Shown here: piece by piece, positions 1-14,751 of the stretch | How the letters are laid out: every line of letters begins with the position of its first letter | How positions within the stretch are numbered: position 1 is the stretch's first letter | Origin: Neisseriaceae bacterium | GTDB lineage: Bacteria > Pseudomonadota > Gammaproteobacteria > Burkholderiales > UBA11063 | Length of the DNA: 14,751 bases | NCBI GenBank assembly: GCA_947470205.1 | Contig: CANISK010000014.1 | Span: forward strand, 1 to 14,751 | Direction: 5' to 3' | Program-made: the position numbers and the translations under genes | Notes under the pieces: generated by a model | What the model was told of the DNA's origin: nothing | Seen by the model: only the letters and a program-made list of their open reading frames with translations | Database searches by the model: none

Positions 1-254
1 AGCCTTCTTTTAAAAAGGATATGAAAAAATACAAACACAATAACAAAGTTTTGGATGAATTAGAATATATTATATCATTATTAATTCATGAAAAACCTAT
101 ATCCGCTAAATACCGAAATCATATGTTAACTGGTAACCATGCTGGTATTATGGAAGTACACTTACGACCAGACGACTTGTTGCTATATGTTAAGGTGGAG
201 CACGAAAGCATTACTCTGACAGCTTTAGGTAGTCATGCAGAATTGTTTGGGTAA
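1..254 (+). CDS. yafQ: YafQ-family type II toxin (mRNA interferase), 5' end outside window
   Basis: This is the 3' part of a RelE/ParE-superfamily toxin of the YafQ type, a ribosome-dependent mRNA endonuclease normally held inactive by a DinJ/RelB-type antitoxin. The frame is open to the window edge. Before the first visible ATG (position 21) it reads PSFKKD, which fits the family's N-terminal F-K-x-D helix, so the true start is upstream and the ATG is internal. Numbering from that Met, equivalents of the E. coli YafQ functional residues are H34 (H50), H47 (H63), D51 (D67), H72 (H87) and F76 (F91), and the protein ends in the typical HAxLFG. Two positions differ: Trp68 is Asp (D52) and Arg83 is Ala (A68). 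The antitoxin would be expected just upstream, outside the window. The family call is firm; whether the toxin is active is uncertain. Confidence 0.88.
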   Translation, partial: PSFKKDMKKYKHNNKVLDELEYIISLLIHEKPISAKYRNHMLTGNHAGIMEVHLRPDDLLLYVKVEHESITLTALGSHAELFG

Positions 255-294: not shown

Positions 295-1083
295 TCAAGG
301 GTTACAGCTATTGGTGAAATCCTCTCCCAATATCGCGAGTTTTAAATATACATCTAAATTTGCGTCCTTGAGATGCAAAGTCTTATAATAAACATGAAGA
401 CTTTCATGCTTCACCATTTCAAATTCTTTTATAAATTGAAATTTATATCTGTATAATACATCGTGAGCAAATCTCCACGCAGTGACCTCTTCTCTAAATA
501 CAAGCCATGTATATATCGCATTTCCAGGAGTGGTTTGACGCTGATGCATTAATTGAATACCATACTGCAAAGGGGCATCATGATATCCCCTGATAAAAGA
601 TAAAAAATGTCCAAATTCATGGCCAATCACCACAATAAGTTGAATAATATCAGTATCAGTAGAATTATTTATTACATCATATACATACTTTTCTACCATA
701 CGTTGTAGACTATTGCCGTAAATAATAATCTGCGGGGGAGATTCAAGTGGCTCATACACTCCACGAAGTGGGGCAAATATACAATGATTGCCACCACCTT
801 TTGGGGATGGTCTAAATGATGCCTCTACAATATACGTTCCATGGTCTTTTGGTTTTTGAGGAATGATATCCACACCAGATTGCAATATCTCCATAAACAG
901 ATTTACCATCACTTCATAATTTAATCTCTCTGTGGGTGCGAGATCAGATGCGTCTCTTTCCGGTAAGTCAATTTCTGGGAAGTGAAATTTTTCATGAAAT
1001 GGTATTGTAATTGGTTGCTGTGGGGTGTTTGAACTAATGGCGGGGTTAATACCCGTACTAGTTATACGATCAATTTTATTCAT
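295..1083 (-). CDS. Uncharacterised HEFGH-motif (zincin-like) protein downstream of lpxH
   Basis: A 262-residue protein that I do not recognise as a named family. The key motif is H155-E-F-G-H159, the HExxH zinc-binding signature of zincin metallopeptidases, on a hydrophobic helix beginning IIQLIVVIG. About 40 residues on, R197-E-E-V-T-A-W-R-F-A206 gives E198/E199 as possible third zinc ligands. This resembles the ExxAxxFA helix of ImmA/IrrE-type gluzincins, although the rest does not look like that family. The first 50 residues are rich in Pro, Thr and Ser and look disordered. There is no signal peptide or membrane segment, so it should be cytosolic or exported by a dedicated system. The ATG lies 6 bp after the lpxH stop, so the two are probably co-transcribed. 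A role as a protease or secreted effector is inference from the motif only. Confidence 0.75.
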   Translation of the reverse strand: MNKIDRITSTGINPAISSNTPQQPITIPFHEKFHFPEIDLPERDASDLAPTERLNYEVMVNLFMEILQSGVDIIPQKPKDHGTYIVEASFRPSPKGGGNHCIFAPLRGVYEPLESPPQIIIYGNSLQRMVEKYVYDVINNSTDTDIIQLIVVIGHEFGHFLSFIRGYHDAPLQYGIQLMHQRQTTPGNAIYTWLVFREEVTAWRFAHDVLYRYKFQFIKEFEMVKHESLHVYYKTLHLKDANLDVYLKLAILGEDFTNSCNP

Positions 1084-1932: not shown

Positions 1933-3615
1933 ATGGATAACTCTCAAAATCAAACACCAGCTACAACCAATTTTATTAAAAATATTATTGAAAATGACCT
2001 ACAAACTAAAAGACACACCACCATAATCACAAGATTCCCCCCAGAGCCAAATGGTTACCTACATATAGGGCACGCCAAATCCATTTGTCTAAATTTTGGC
2101 CTTGCAAATACCTTTAATGGTACTTGTAATTTGCGTTTTGATGATACCAATCCAGAGAAAGAGACCGAAGAGTACATACAAAGCATCATGAATGATGTAT
2201 CTTGGCTTGGTTTTAAATGGCATGGAGAGGTAAAATATGCATCAGATTATTTTGATAAATTATATGAATGTGCGGAATACTTGATTTCACAATCTCGTGC
2301 CTATGTATGTGATTTATCTTTTGATGAAATGAAACTCACGCGTGGCACTTTAGTCAATGTTGGTACAAATAGCCCATATAGAAATAGAAATGCAGATGAA
2401 AACCTATTATTATTTAGAAAAATGCGCGATGGTGAATTTGAAGATGGCACAAAGACATTACGTCTTAAAATAGACATGAGTTCGCCAAATATAAATATGC
2501 GAGATCCGATAATATATAGAATCAAAAAAATCCATCACATAAGAACCGCGGATAAGTGGTGCATATACCCTATGTATGATTTTACTCACTGTATATCAGA
2601 CGCTTTGGAAAATATTACCCATTCTTGTTGTACCTTAGAATTTGCAGACCACCGACTACTTTATGATTGGATTATACACCACTTGGTAAATGATGGGATA
2701 ATATCACATACTCCAAGACAAATAGAGTTTTCAAGGTTAGAATTGCAATACACAGTCACAAGCAAACGCAAATTAAATGAATTAGTTGTAAATAATCTAG
2801 TATCAGGTTGGGATGACCCCAGAATGCCAACTATATCAGGCATGCGAAGAAGGGGGTACCCAAAAGATGGGATACATTTATTTATTAACCGCTGTGGAGT
2901 ATCTAAGTCTCCAAATATTATGGATCTCGCAGTTCTTGAGAGTTCTGTCCGCGAGGTATTGGAAGGTAACGCAAAAAGATTAATGGCGGTATTAAACCCA
3001 TTAAAAATAACATTAACCAATTTTGATGAAACTATAGGTAGTAAAAAATCTCCATTCCATTCAAAACATGAAAATATGGGAGAGCGGATGGTAGAACTCA
3101 CACGTGAAATATACATCGAACAAGATGATTTTATGGAGACGCCAATTGCAAAATGGCAACGTTTGTCTCTAGGTGGTGAAGTTCGTCTTAGGCATAGTTA
3201 CATTATCAAGTGTGATGAAATTATAAAAGATGATAACGGCAATATTATTCAGTTAAATTGCAGTATAGATAAAAACACATTGGGGAGAAATCCAGAAGAT
3301 AGAAAAGTTAAGGGGGTAATTCACTGGGTGAGTGTTACAAAAAGCATACCATGTATAGTTAGATTATATGACAGACTATTTACCAAAGCAGAGCCAGATC
3401 ACCATACATCAGATTTTAAACAATTAATAAATCCAAATTCATTAGACGAAGTCAACGCATATATAGAGCCTGCGGTAAATACACTACATCCAGAAGAGGT
3501 GGTGCAATTTGAACGCTTGGGTTATTTTGTAGCAGATAGATATGATTTTAATTTGACAAATAAGACATATATATTTAATAAAACGGTAGGCTTAAGAGAT
3601 GTATGGAAAAACTAA
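1933..3615 (+). CDS. glnS: Glutaminyl-tRNA synthetase
   Basis: GlnRS charges tRNA-Gln with glutamine in the cytosol. The 560-residue length is close to the 554 of E. coli. The class I catalytic domain (about residues 25-340) carries [15 protein letters not shown], with the HIGH motif at 44-47, followed by the GlnRS-type [12 protein letters not shown]. The KMSKS-equivalent loop is V275-T-S-K-R279, with Thr where E. coli has Met. The two-barrel anticodon-binding domain fills the C-terminal part and includes GVIHWVS. The GlnRS-specific sequences distinguish it from a non-discriminating GltX. A direct GlnRS is typical of gamma- and many betaproteobacteria and absent from most other bacteria. The start is supported by a GGAA 8 nt upstream. 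Its end overlaps the next gene by 13 nt. Confidence 0.97.
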
Positions 3616-4067
3616 GTTATAATTGGTGGTTATTGGGATTATTTTATATAAATATTACACATGCAGATTGTACATTTAGGGTTTTTAATTATTCTCAATA
3701 TACGCTAAGTATAGAAGCAGGTTTTTCCAATAACCAATCCAAAAAATTTTCCATTTCACCGAGTATGTCTAACTCAATAACCATCAAAGATATAAACTGC
3801 ACAAGTACCTCACCTAGTGACTTGGGGCTTGGGTATATAAAGATTATAGGGGATAAAAATAATGATAGCCAATGGCGATATGTGCCATCAAGTCACATAA
3901 TACGTGCAATTGGATCATCCGCCACAGGCAACGCATTTGTAATTGGTAAAACCAGCAATAATAACCCAATTGCATTATATAATAATTACTCAGTGACAGA
4001 TGGCATTTTTGAAGTGCAGGTGAAACCCGCCACATTTAAAGACACCAAAAACAGTGCATCTAATTAA
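3603..4067 (+). CDS. Small exported protein of unknown function, overlapping glnS
   Basis: A 154-residue protein that I do not recognise. Residues 1-21 look like a Sec signal peptide: Lys3, a hydrophobic core around WWLLGLFYI, and a probable cut after T-H-A21 to give a mature protein starting D-C. Cys22 is not at a clear lipobox (+1 would need L-x-A-C), so a soluble periplasmic or secreted protein is likelier than a lipoprotein. The mature part is rich in Ser, Asn, Ile and Tyr with alternating polar and hydrophobic residues, suggesting a beta-sandwich. Its only two cysteines, C23 and C66, could form a disulfide. The ATG lies inside the last codons of glnS in another frame, so translational coupling is likely, with AAGAG just upstream as a modest ribosome binding site. 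Confidence 0.78.
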
Positions 4068-4306: not shown

Positions 4307-7012
4307 ATGCCTGGAATCAATCTAAAATCTTTTTTCAAGGTAAATTTATTATGCAAATTCAAAACAATAACAATAGCTGTATACAACACCGCCCCAAATT
4401 ATCAAGCAATAAATGGGGGGTTAGATAAATCTTCACGAAAAGATCCACTATTTATTTATAAGTATTCATCTGGGTGCAGCGTCCAAGTAATGTCATTATT
4501 AAAATTTCAGGAATCAGTTGATAAAAAAGATCATTTTACCTTTTTTGATCTTACAATGAAAATCCTTTATATATATAAAGATGGCAAAATTGAAAAATAT
4601 ACCTCTAATAAAAAGTTGGATGCATTTACCTCAAAATTAAACAATAATGAAATAATACAACACGATGAATTATCTACATTATTCGAGGGCTACACCCATT
4701 CATCTAATAGGACAACATTCACGAGAATATACAATGCGGATAAGAAAGTTCTAAAAGAAACATTGGTGATTAAAGGGGAAGAGATGGCCGCTTCTTTCGA
4801 AGATGACAGTCAACCAAAATTAACAGGTGTCGCAAATCTAGAAGAATATTGGAATTCATTAAGCAAGTCATTTGACTTCAGCGCTAGCCACATTAAAACT
4901 ACATGCATACCTGTATCTATGATGAATAAACAGGAGCTCTACGAATTAAGTAAATTACTCAATAACGATGGGTGCAGCGTCAAATTAATGTCATTATTAG
5001 AATTTCAGGAATTAACTGATAAAAAAGATCATTTTACCTTTTTTGATCCTACAATGAAAAGCCTTTATATATATAAAGATGACAAAGTTGAAACATATAC
5101 CTCTAATGAAAATTTGGATGCATTTACCTTAAAATTAAACAAGAATGAAATAATACAACACGATGAATTATCTACATTATTCAAGGGCTACACCCATAAC
5201 GATAAACTAAATGAGAATACGGACTTCTGGATGGAAGAAAGAATGATCAAGGGGGAACTAGTAAGAGATTATGTAATTGTTAACAATGGCCACAAAACAA
5301 AGATTACAGATCCGAACATTAGCTTGCTATTAAGGAGAATAGCTGTTAGATTACCTGCTTGTGAGTGGCCTTCATCATGCTCATCAGTAAGCGTGGTACC
5401 AGCAGAAATTGAATATGTGTATAGCTTACTAAACCGCAAAGAACAGTTGCGAAAAGTATACAATGTTCATGATAGATTATTAAAAGAGATAGTAACTCAA
5501 GATAATAAAGTGATACAAACTGTTGATTATATTTATGTAGATAGCGAAGGTAAACCATTGGATAACGGAGCAGTGATAAAGGCAGTTTACAATCAAAATA
5601 ACATATTAATGAAACAAATCACACTACAAGACAAGAAAAAGATAAAATCAATTTATTTTTGCGATGCTGATGGGAATTCATTGCCCGATAACGCCACTTT
5701 TCAAAAAACATACAAATATGATCAAAACAATCAATGGACATGGAAGCAGGAGAAGATTACATATTTTTATAAAACAAGTGACTATAAAAAAATAATCACT
5801 GCTATTCAAAATAATCCAAATCAACCACATCAGGTTACAGAAGTAATAGAGACAAAGGGGCAGAAATTTGAGTATCACTGGAGCGCAGAAGATTACAAGC
5901 AACATCGAAATACATTACTAATAAAGCCTTGTATTTTTGGAAAATTACCAGGAGAAAACATGAACAATACTTTGGAAAATTTTATACCAACTACAGATAC
6001 GCAGAAGAGCTTGCTACAGGCAGCCCGTGAAGTTATTGGTTTAGTTAGTGGTGCACAAAAAAATGCAACAATATTCATCATCACTGGAGCTCCAGGATGT
6101 GGTAAAACTCATATATCATCAGCAATAGCAAAAGAATTATTGCTACAGTATAAGATTTCCACTCAATTTAAAAGACAGGATGATAAGCCTAATGGTGTCA
6201 TTATAAAGCATGCAGGTATTATTATGGTAGATGACTTACAGCTTCCAGATTCAAGTGATTGCTATACTGCTGTTAAAACCAAAGACAACAAAGGGAAGAC
6301 AATCAAAACGCCCACCCTACATACTTCATTGGAATATTTATTAAAAATTTACACAGAAGCTAAAACAAATGAACAAATATTATGGGTAACTTCTAACCAT
6401 GAAAAACCAAGCACATTATTTGACAAAGATATGTGGAACAAGATTATTGCAGACTGTGAAAGCGAAGGCATTATTATTAGTCAACAACTATATAATTTTG
6501 TGGAGATGATTAAACAGGAAGCCTCTTATCTTCATGTCGAAGGACAAGAGAAAAGAAATGGTTTGGCAGATTCCATCAAAAATAATCCCAACCATTCACT
6601 TCAAAAGGTTTGCGATCAAGACGTTACACAACAATTACCCGGTGTGATTCTCTTGTCTCGCGATCAGTATAATGCGACAACAGCAGCTCTTTTGAGGGAA
6701 AATGGTGTAAAAACAATATGGTCAGCTTTTATGTCAGTAGCCAGTGGAATTAAAAAAATGTTAATACAGGTTGGGGATATAGACAAGGAGGAGAGGGGGA
6801 GGTTGTTGAATTTTGCGAGAGACGCATTTGATAATAATAAAATCTTGTTTTTAATAATAAATAAAGAATACATTAATAAAAAGTTTTGCACATGGCTCTC
6901 AGATGATACATACTTATTTAAACATATGCAAAATGCTCAACAGGGAAATGAAAGCCGCTTGGCGCACATGACCGTATGTTGTGATGACAATGGCACACTT
7001 AAGCAATTATAA
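4307..7012 (+). CDS. Large repeat-containing P-loop ATPase (AAA+ or SF3-helicase-like), unknown function
   Basis: A 901-residue protein with no family name that I recognise. Residues 56-131 and 222-297 are near-identical copies of a 76-residue domain, 166 residues apart. Residues about 385-490 hold imperfect repeats of roughly 43 residues that begin Y-N/D and continue L-x-K-x-I-T-x-Q-D, then D-x-x-G; a related YN stretch occurs at 142. The ATPase domain spans roughly 560-720: Walker A G594-A-P-G-C-G-K-T601, Walker B-like I-I-M-V-D642-D643, and a sensor-1 or SF3 motif C-like V-T-S-N697. The 180-residue C-terminus is unassigned. There is no signal peptide or membrane segment. The ATG at 4307 has no clear ribosome binding site, whereas an out-of-frame ATG at 4351 has AAGG 10 nt upstream, so the N-terminus is doubtful. 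The gene stands alone between glnS and the convergent ffh. Possible roles (effector, defence ATPase, replication-type ATPase) are guesses. Confidence 0.85.
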   Translation: MPGINLKSFFKVNLLCKFKTITIAVYNTAPNYQAINGGLDKSSRKDPLFIYKYSSGCSVQVMSLLKFQESVDKKDHFTFFDLTMKILYIYKDGKIEKYTSNKKLDAFTSKLNNNEIIQHDELSTLFEGYTHSSNRTTFTRIYNADKKVLKETLVIKGEEMAASFEDDSQPKLTGVANLEEYWNSLSKSFDFSASHIKTTCIPVSMMNKQELYELSKLLNNDGCSVKLMSLLEFQELTDKKDHFTFFDPTMKSLYIYKDDKVETYTSNENLDAFTLKLNKNEIIQHDELSTLFKGYTHNDKLNENTDFWMEERMIKGELVRDYVIVNNGHKTKITDPNISLLLRRIAVRLPACEWPSSCSSVSVVPAEIEYVYSLLNRKEQLRKVYNVHDRLLKEIVTQDNKVIQTVDYIYVDSEGKPLDNGAVIKAVYNQNNILMKQITLQDKKKIKSIYFCDADGNSLPDNATFQKTYKYDQNNQWTWKQEKITYFYKTSDYKKIITAIQNNPNQPHQVTEVIETKGQKFEYHWSAEDYKQHRNTLLIKPCIFGKLPGENMNNTLENFIPTTDTQKSLLQAAREVIGLVSGAQKNATIFIITGAPGCGKTHISSAIAKELLLQYKISTQFKRQDDKPNGVIIKHAGIIMVDDLQLPDSSDCYTAVKTKDNKGKTIKTPTLHTSLEYLLKIYTEAKTNEQILWVTSNHEKPSTLFDKDMWNKIIADCESEGIIISQQLYNFVEMIKQEASYLHVEGQEKRNGLADSIKNNPNHSLQKVCDQDVTQQLPGVILLSRDQYNATTAALLRENGVKTIWSAFMSVASGIKKMLIQVGDIDKEERGRLLNFARDAFDNNKILFLIINKEYINKKFCTWLSDDTYLFKHMQNAQQGNESRLAHMTVCCDDNGTLKQL
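4471..4699 (+). repeat. Internal duplication copy 1 in the ATPase gene
   Basis: This is the first of two directly repeated 229-bp segments, coding residues 56-131 (GCSVQVMSLL to EGYTH). It aligns without gaps to 4969-5197, offset by 498 bp, with 16 base mismatches counted by eye (about 93% identity). Similarity starts and stops abruptly at both ends. Confidence 0.95.
4969..5197 (+). repeat. Internal duplication copy 2 in the ATPase gene
   Basis: This second copy codes residues 222-297 (GCSVKLMSLL to KGYTH). Of 76 codons, 61 are identical to copy 1 and 15 differ. Every one of the 15 changes the amino acid, and no silent difference was found. The stretches DKKDHFTFFD and NEIIQHDELSTLF are invariant. 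Confidence 0.95.
5459..5740 (+). repeat. Degenerate repeats of about 43 codons in the ATPase gene
   Basis: Protein-level repeats start at Y385-N, Y428-N and Y471-D, spaced 43 residues. The shared pattern is YN(x)4-LxK-x-ITxQD-x-K-x-I, then a D-x-x-G turn, L-x-D-N and a return to a Y-N/D-Q-N-N-like start, with small indels. The pattern suggests a beta-hairpin repeat array like those of YD/RHS-type or other binding repeats. I cannot assign a specific family. Confidence 0.6.
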
Positions 7013-14554: not shown

Positions 14555-14751
14555 TAGACTTCTTGCATAACCTCATAAAATGCTAATTCGACATAAGAAA
14601 TTAATAAATGTTGTCATTCCCTAAGTCGTCGGGAATCCAGTTTTACAACATCCAACATTCATTTTAAAAGGTGACTATCTACATTGAATGGATTCCCGCC
14701 TACGCGGGAATGACATAAATTGGCACTTTTATAGGTTATGCAAGAAGTCTA
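14555..14751. mobile_element. 197-bp MITE with perfect 19-bp terminal inverted repeats
   Basis: TAGACTTCTTGCATAACCT (14555-14573) is repeated exactly in inverted orientation at 14733-14751, the last base of the window. Similarity continues inward with one indel (ATAAAATGC on the left against ATAAAAGTGC on the right). There is no transposase gene, so it is a non-autonomous element that would be moved by an IS elsewhere in the genome. If the outer TA is a target duplication, an IS630/Tc1-mariner-type transposase would fit, but the right flank is not visible, so this is open. Confidence 0.85.
14612..14715. repeat. Palindromic repeat of the TCATTCCC / GGGAATGA family, copy 2, nested in the MITE
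   Basis: The left arm is TGTCATTCCC to GGGAATCCA (14612-14639) and the right arm is TGGATTCCCGCC to GCGGGAATGACA (14689-14715), separated by a 49-bp AT-rich centre. It has the same arm sequences and architecture as the 14286 copy, with different inner loops. It forms most of the MITE interior, so either it inserted into the MITE or the MITE family carries it. Confidence 0.87.

Follow-up and report, generated by a model that had tools for sequence, protein, structure and literature searches.

How a second copy of a protein module can come to differ from the first in its amino acids while no silent change separates the two is the question raised by one gene in the 14,751-nucleotide stretch of DNA analyzed here (the window). 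Within a single open reading frame of 901 codons on the + strand (positions 4307-7012), direct-repeat search and codon alignment identify two copies of a 76-residue module, termed here the type I module. Copy 1 (positions 4471-4699, + strand, residues 56-131) and copy 2 (positions 4969-5197, + strand, residues 222-297) lie in the same frame and form a direct repeat of 229 nucleotides that is 93% identical, with a spacing of 498 nucleotides. The codon alignment reproduces exactly the counts given in an earlier sequence-only reading of this DNA: the copies align without gaps and show 16 mismatches in 15 of the 76 codons, all 15 codon changes alter the amino acid, and 61 codons are the same to the base. 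Seven of the mismatches fall at the first codon position, seven at the second, and two at the third. As the match line of the alignment indicates, similarity breaks off abruptly at either end, so that a domain-sized piece, not a unit of 498 nucleotides, was copied or converted.

Judged from its sequence, the 229-nucleotide pair is no chance repeat. That the module was recently duplicated or converted, as the same reading had proposed, is well supported by the 93% identity, the lack of any silent change, and the abrupt ends, and a recent intragenic duplication in what appears to be an orphan AAA+ protein may be taken as real. The variable region of a diversity-generating retroelement was considered for this pair and rejected, as the mismatches are not confined to adenines of a template copy; adenine stands at 4 of the 16 mismatched positions in copy 1 and at 4 of 16 in copy 2 on the + strand, and again at 4 and 4 on the - strand.

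Whether the absence of silent changes exceeds what neutral divergence would leave can be approached in several ways. By the NG86 method, dN between the copies is 0.091 and dS is 0. From a count of mutational opportunities with stops excluded, neutrality predicts that 2.9-4.5 of the 16 changes would be silent, and the probability of finding none is 0.005-0.040 by this count, 0.007-0.049 with the one doubly hit codon counted as a single event, and 0.007-0.045 in a simulation that uses the third-position base frequencies of the gene. Three frequency models give 2dlnL values of 10.1, 8.5, and 8.5 when a pairwise codon model is compared with one in which omega is fixed at 1; the corresponding nominal P values of 0.0015, 0.0036, and 0.0035 are asymptotic chi-square values and so optimistic given so few changes. 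The pairwise model rejects omega below about 2-3 at the 5% level, the estimate of omega itself running to its set bound.

The main rival explanation, possible though not the favored one, is a neutral or relaxed young duplicate, in which a redundant copy has evolved with omega near 1 and silent changes are missing by chance. How well this account fares depends on transition bias, as the neutral probability is 0.014-0.045 at a bias of 1-2 but only about 0.005-0.013 at the bias of 3.2-5.4 estimated by the codon model. The comparison with omega fixed at 1 argues against it, as does a reading frame that is still uninterrupted to its end. In its favor, the replacements look random in both place and severity. 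The changed residues are scattered along the module, with 13 as the longest stretch free of change (P 0.60). Their BLOSUM62 scores average -0.20 vs -0.14 for random nonsynonymous changes. On the side of the favored explanation, if weakly, none of the 10 aromatic residues of the module is changed, which would fit a preserved fold; the probability of this by chance, calculated by hand, is about 0.09.

A control scan for comparable repeats covered 1.67 Mb of fetched loci and sought in-frame repeats of at least 30 codons and 5 differences with more than 85% identity. It returned 15 repeat pairs, which reduce to four proteins when antisense frames and a gene retrieved twice are merged, a small set of which half comes from Vibrio. 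Only one of the 15 pairs lacks silent codon changes altogether, and it is the pair described here (trimmed to 70 codons in the scan). In a lipoprotein-like frame of a congener (G018, loci L103/L107) with repeats of about 100 residues, for example, one pair has 3 nonsynonymous and 8 synonymous codons. The interpretation offered in the sequence-only reading is borne out in part: dN/dS for the pair is above 1 at nominal significance, but diversifying selection on a surface that recognizes partners would be no more than a possibility, as the sets searched yielded no further copy for site-wise comparison. The changes, moreover, are unclustered and about as severe as random nonsynonymous changes. 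The signal of positive selection is a nominal result from a single pair with 16 changes and a modest probability, the pair having been singled out as striking. As two sequences with no outgroup are compared, neither direction nor selected sites can be inferred.

Another way to obtain the same pattern is constraint on silent sites, through RNA structure or a regulatory or overlapping signal, by which dS would be lowered instead of dN raised. The 61 codons that are identical to the base would be expected in that case, but no open reading frame of at least 60 residues in another frame overlaps either copy, and third-position GC is 0.276 in both copies vs 0.266-0.289 in four neighboring genes, so that this explanation is improbable. 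An assembly or sequencing artefact is likewise very unlikely. Although the source genome is a fragmented assembly (1.43 Mb in 197 contigs, 88% complete), the two copies sit between different flanking sequences of a single contig, silent sites should not be exempt from errors, and the 901-residue protein occurs on three contigs in a protein collection, which may all come from one sample. The least probable alternative is that recombination replaced one copy with an allele or paralogue whose own divergence had been driven by selection. The abrupt ends of similarity and the large duplicated gene families reported for the intracellular betaproteobacterial lineage Ca. Ichthyocystis (PMC4943182) lend it some plausibility, but a search of the organism's own genome (88% complete) at E <= 5 returned no third copy.

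The gene that carries the repeat combines an orphan N-terminal part with what matches a C-terminal DnaC/IstB-like AAA+ ATPase domain, a larger context that goes unmentioned in the sequence-only reading. The core of that match is to phrog_50, a DnaC-like helicase loader, at residues 546-615 (positions 5942-6151, + strand; E 6.1e-11), and a second search placed it at the same site with E 5.5e-12. Structure 6qel in the PDB is matched with E 0.0011 over residues 552-616, the helicase loaders of two satellite phages match residues 492-616 in a phage search (E 8e-4 and 4e-3), and a 255-residue frame from a congener matches the ATPase part with E 9e-5 in a small search set. The NCBIfam DnaC model NF005931 matches with E 2.6e-6, and its score of 27.2 bits vs a curated cut-off of 357 places the protein outside that equivalog family; the DnaA-like Hda model gives a nearly equal match (E 9.4e-6), also far below its cut-off, and all Pfam AAA matches of the protein fall below theirs.

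A Walker A P-loop with a preceding DnaC-like stretch, which marks the DnaC/IstB-like AAA+ domain at superfamily level, is present in the protein, the Walker A motif being GAPGCGKT (residues 594-601, positions 6086-6109, + strand). By eye, IIMVDDLQL (residues 638-646, positions 6218-6244, + strand) is plausible as a sequence presumed to be Walker B-like, and ILWVTSN (residues 691-697, positions 6377-6397, + strand) as one presumed to be sensor-1-like; the longest good profile matches stop at residue 645. By profile and motif, the C-terminal half thus matches AAA+ helicase-loader ATPases, with scores that do not separate the DnaC from the Hda subfamily. With the DnaC/IstB/DnaI loaders (NF005931, phrog_50, 6qel) it has in common Walker A and the sequence leading up to the P-loop, and Walker B and sensor 1 also look shared by eye. 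Those loaders, however, are about 250 residues long compared with 901 here, and they lack the orphan N-terminal 540 residues with two kinds of repeat. The second kind, termed type II, follows the two module copies, precedes the ATPase domain, and was found by self-alignment as two diverged units of about 43 residues, at residues 381-423 (positions 5447-5575, + strand) and 424-466 (positions 5576-5704, + strand). Their alignment score of 68 has P 0.0005 (reached by none of 2000 shuffles), this being one of 10 segment pairs chosen by eye. The GC content of the gene, 0.331 vs 0.34-0.37 in four other genes measured, is near that of its neighbors, so that a recent foreign origin is not visible.

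Structure prediction offers a view of what the module may be. In AlphaFold2 models of the two copies, one helix is followed by three strands and then two helices, and the best of the five models has a mean pLDDT of 80.6; two of the five reach about 80 and the others 72, 64, and 62. The model of the full-length protein (pLDDT 33.7) is unusable, the low-confidence order of elements in it being the same in both copies. The 76-residue module is thus predicted to be of the alpha/beta type, with no convincing fold match among solved or viral structures. Many of the weak fold matches listed for it are SH2 chains, and SH2 domains have in common with the model the order helix, three strands, helix. The defining residue of SH2 domains is the phosphotyrosine-binding arginine in strand B. 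Neither 76-residue copy contains any arginine, and SH2-like phosphotyrosine binding is not supported.

Relatives of the protein were sought in protein collections and in genomes of the genus, order, and class. In a collection of 5.8 billion proteins, searched with restriction by length and shared words, the full-length protein found only itself (7995 candidates sharing the most words were scored, at lengths 0.55-1.75 times that of the query), as did residues 550-901 (2366 candidates), and residues 1-320 matched none of 2228 candidates at E <= 10. Viral contigs and plasmids gave no convincing relative of the N-terminal part. Of 100 genomes of relatives, only the organism's own holds the protein at E <= 0.001. 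In the 23 genomes of the genus, the 76-residue copy at E <= 5 returned its own genome and four weak matches in three others (E 0.025-0.57), and the protein encoded at positions 5960-7009 returned its own genome and weak P-loop matches in 12 others. The best of the weak matches to the module (G018:C3, E 0.025 and 0.065) lie within a repeat lipoprotein and were judged on inspection to be due to chance. More widely, residues 1-320 found their own genome and one other in a sample of 399 genomes of the order at E <= 0.01 (G290, E 0.0085, where about four such matches are expected among 399 genomes), and only their own in a sample of 369 genomes of the class, own included, at E <= 0.001. With no convincing relative of the N-terminal part, repeat included, within the searched sets, the best reading is that this is a lineage-specific protein.

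The best named relatives of glnS (AWTP1-29 and AWTP1-26, then Neisseria, Snodgrassella, Nitrotoga, and Gallionella) indicate a betaproteobacterium. A neighboring gene for a 154-residue protein (positions 3603-4067, + strand), with no family match, has relatives in 12 of the 23 genomes of the genus, own included, and is found no more than about 1.3 kb from glnS, on the same contig, in three congeners (G015, G018, and G007). Neither the 901-residue gene nor ffh was found beside glnS by tblastn in four congener stretches (6-19 kb) and two stretches of 21 kb (L022 and L023), and the 901-residue gene therefore occupies a junction that none of these six congeners shows. Elsewhere in the same genome, sctV of a type III secretion system scores above its cut-off, beside an sctN fragment at a contig end and a weak SctL-like neighbor (L125, 232-4336).

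Several other features of the window were recorded in their own right. Positions 3-254 (+ strand), which run off the edge of the contig, encode the toxin, of YafQ type, from a toxin-antitoxin pair (PF15738, E 1.3e-23). Positions 295-1083 (- strand) encode a 262-residue protein with, by eye, a zinc-metalloprotease-like HEFGH motif; neither Pfam nor NCBIfam matches it at E <= 1, and PHROG gives a single weak match (E 0.17). At the far end, positions 14555-14588 and 14718-14751 form a 34-nucleotide inverted repeat, 85% complementary, which finishes exactly at the contig end and is possibly the end of a mobile element.

The explanation favored here, moderately supported and given about an even chance, is that in this betaproteobacterium, which carries genes of a type III secretion system, the 76-residue module of a lineage-specific protein was recently duplicated or converted and then diverged adaptively. 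The module would have been copied to a second place within the same AAA+ gene, or converted there, and the copies have since diverged through amino acid replacements only. Most likely, selection favored a variant module with a different binding target, and the outcome would be a region of two binding modules attached to an ATP-driven, DnaC-like domain. From the presence of sctV and the sctN fragment, we would guess that the protein is exported via the type III secretion system of the cell. A bolder proposal, which must be considered doubtful, is that the module represents an undescribed recognition domain in the course of adaptive duplication, in which case a host-dependent betaproteobacterium would just have gained, in one of its ATP-driven proteins, a second binding module whose specificity changes faster than silent sites drift.

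The effector-like families of Ca. Ichthyocystis (PMC4943182) offer a parallel in combining a betaproteobacterial setting, type III secretion, duplication with diversification, and lineage-restricted proteins. There, however, whole genes are arranged in tandem arrays, whereas here one module has been duplicated inside a single-copy gene. The parallel is offered as one of kind, with no claim of kinship, and is not meant to imply intracellular life for the present organism.

In its present state, this is a well measured, single-pair case. If real, it would show cleanly how adaptive divergence proceeds immediately after a duplication, in an orphan gene and free of confusing silent changes, and would draw attention both to a module so far unknown and to a protein that is a candidate for host interaction.
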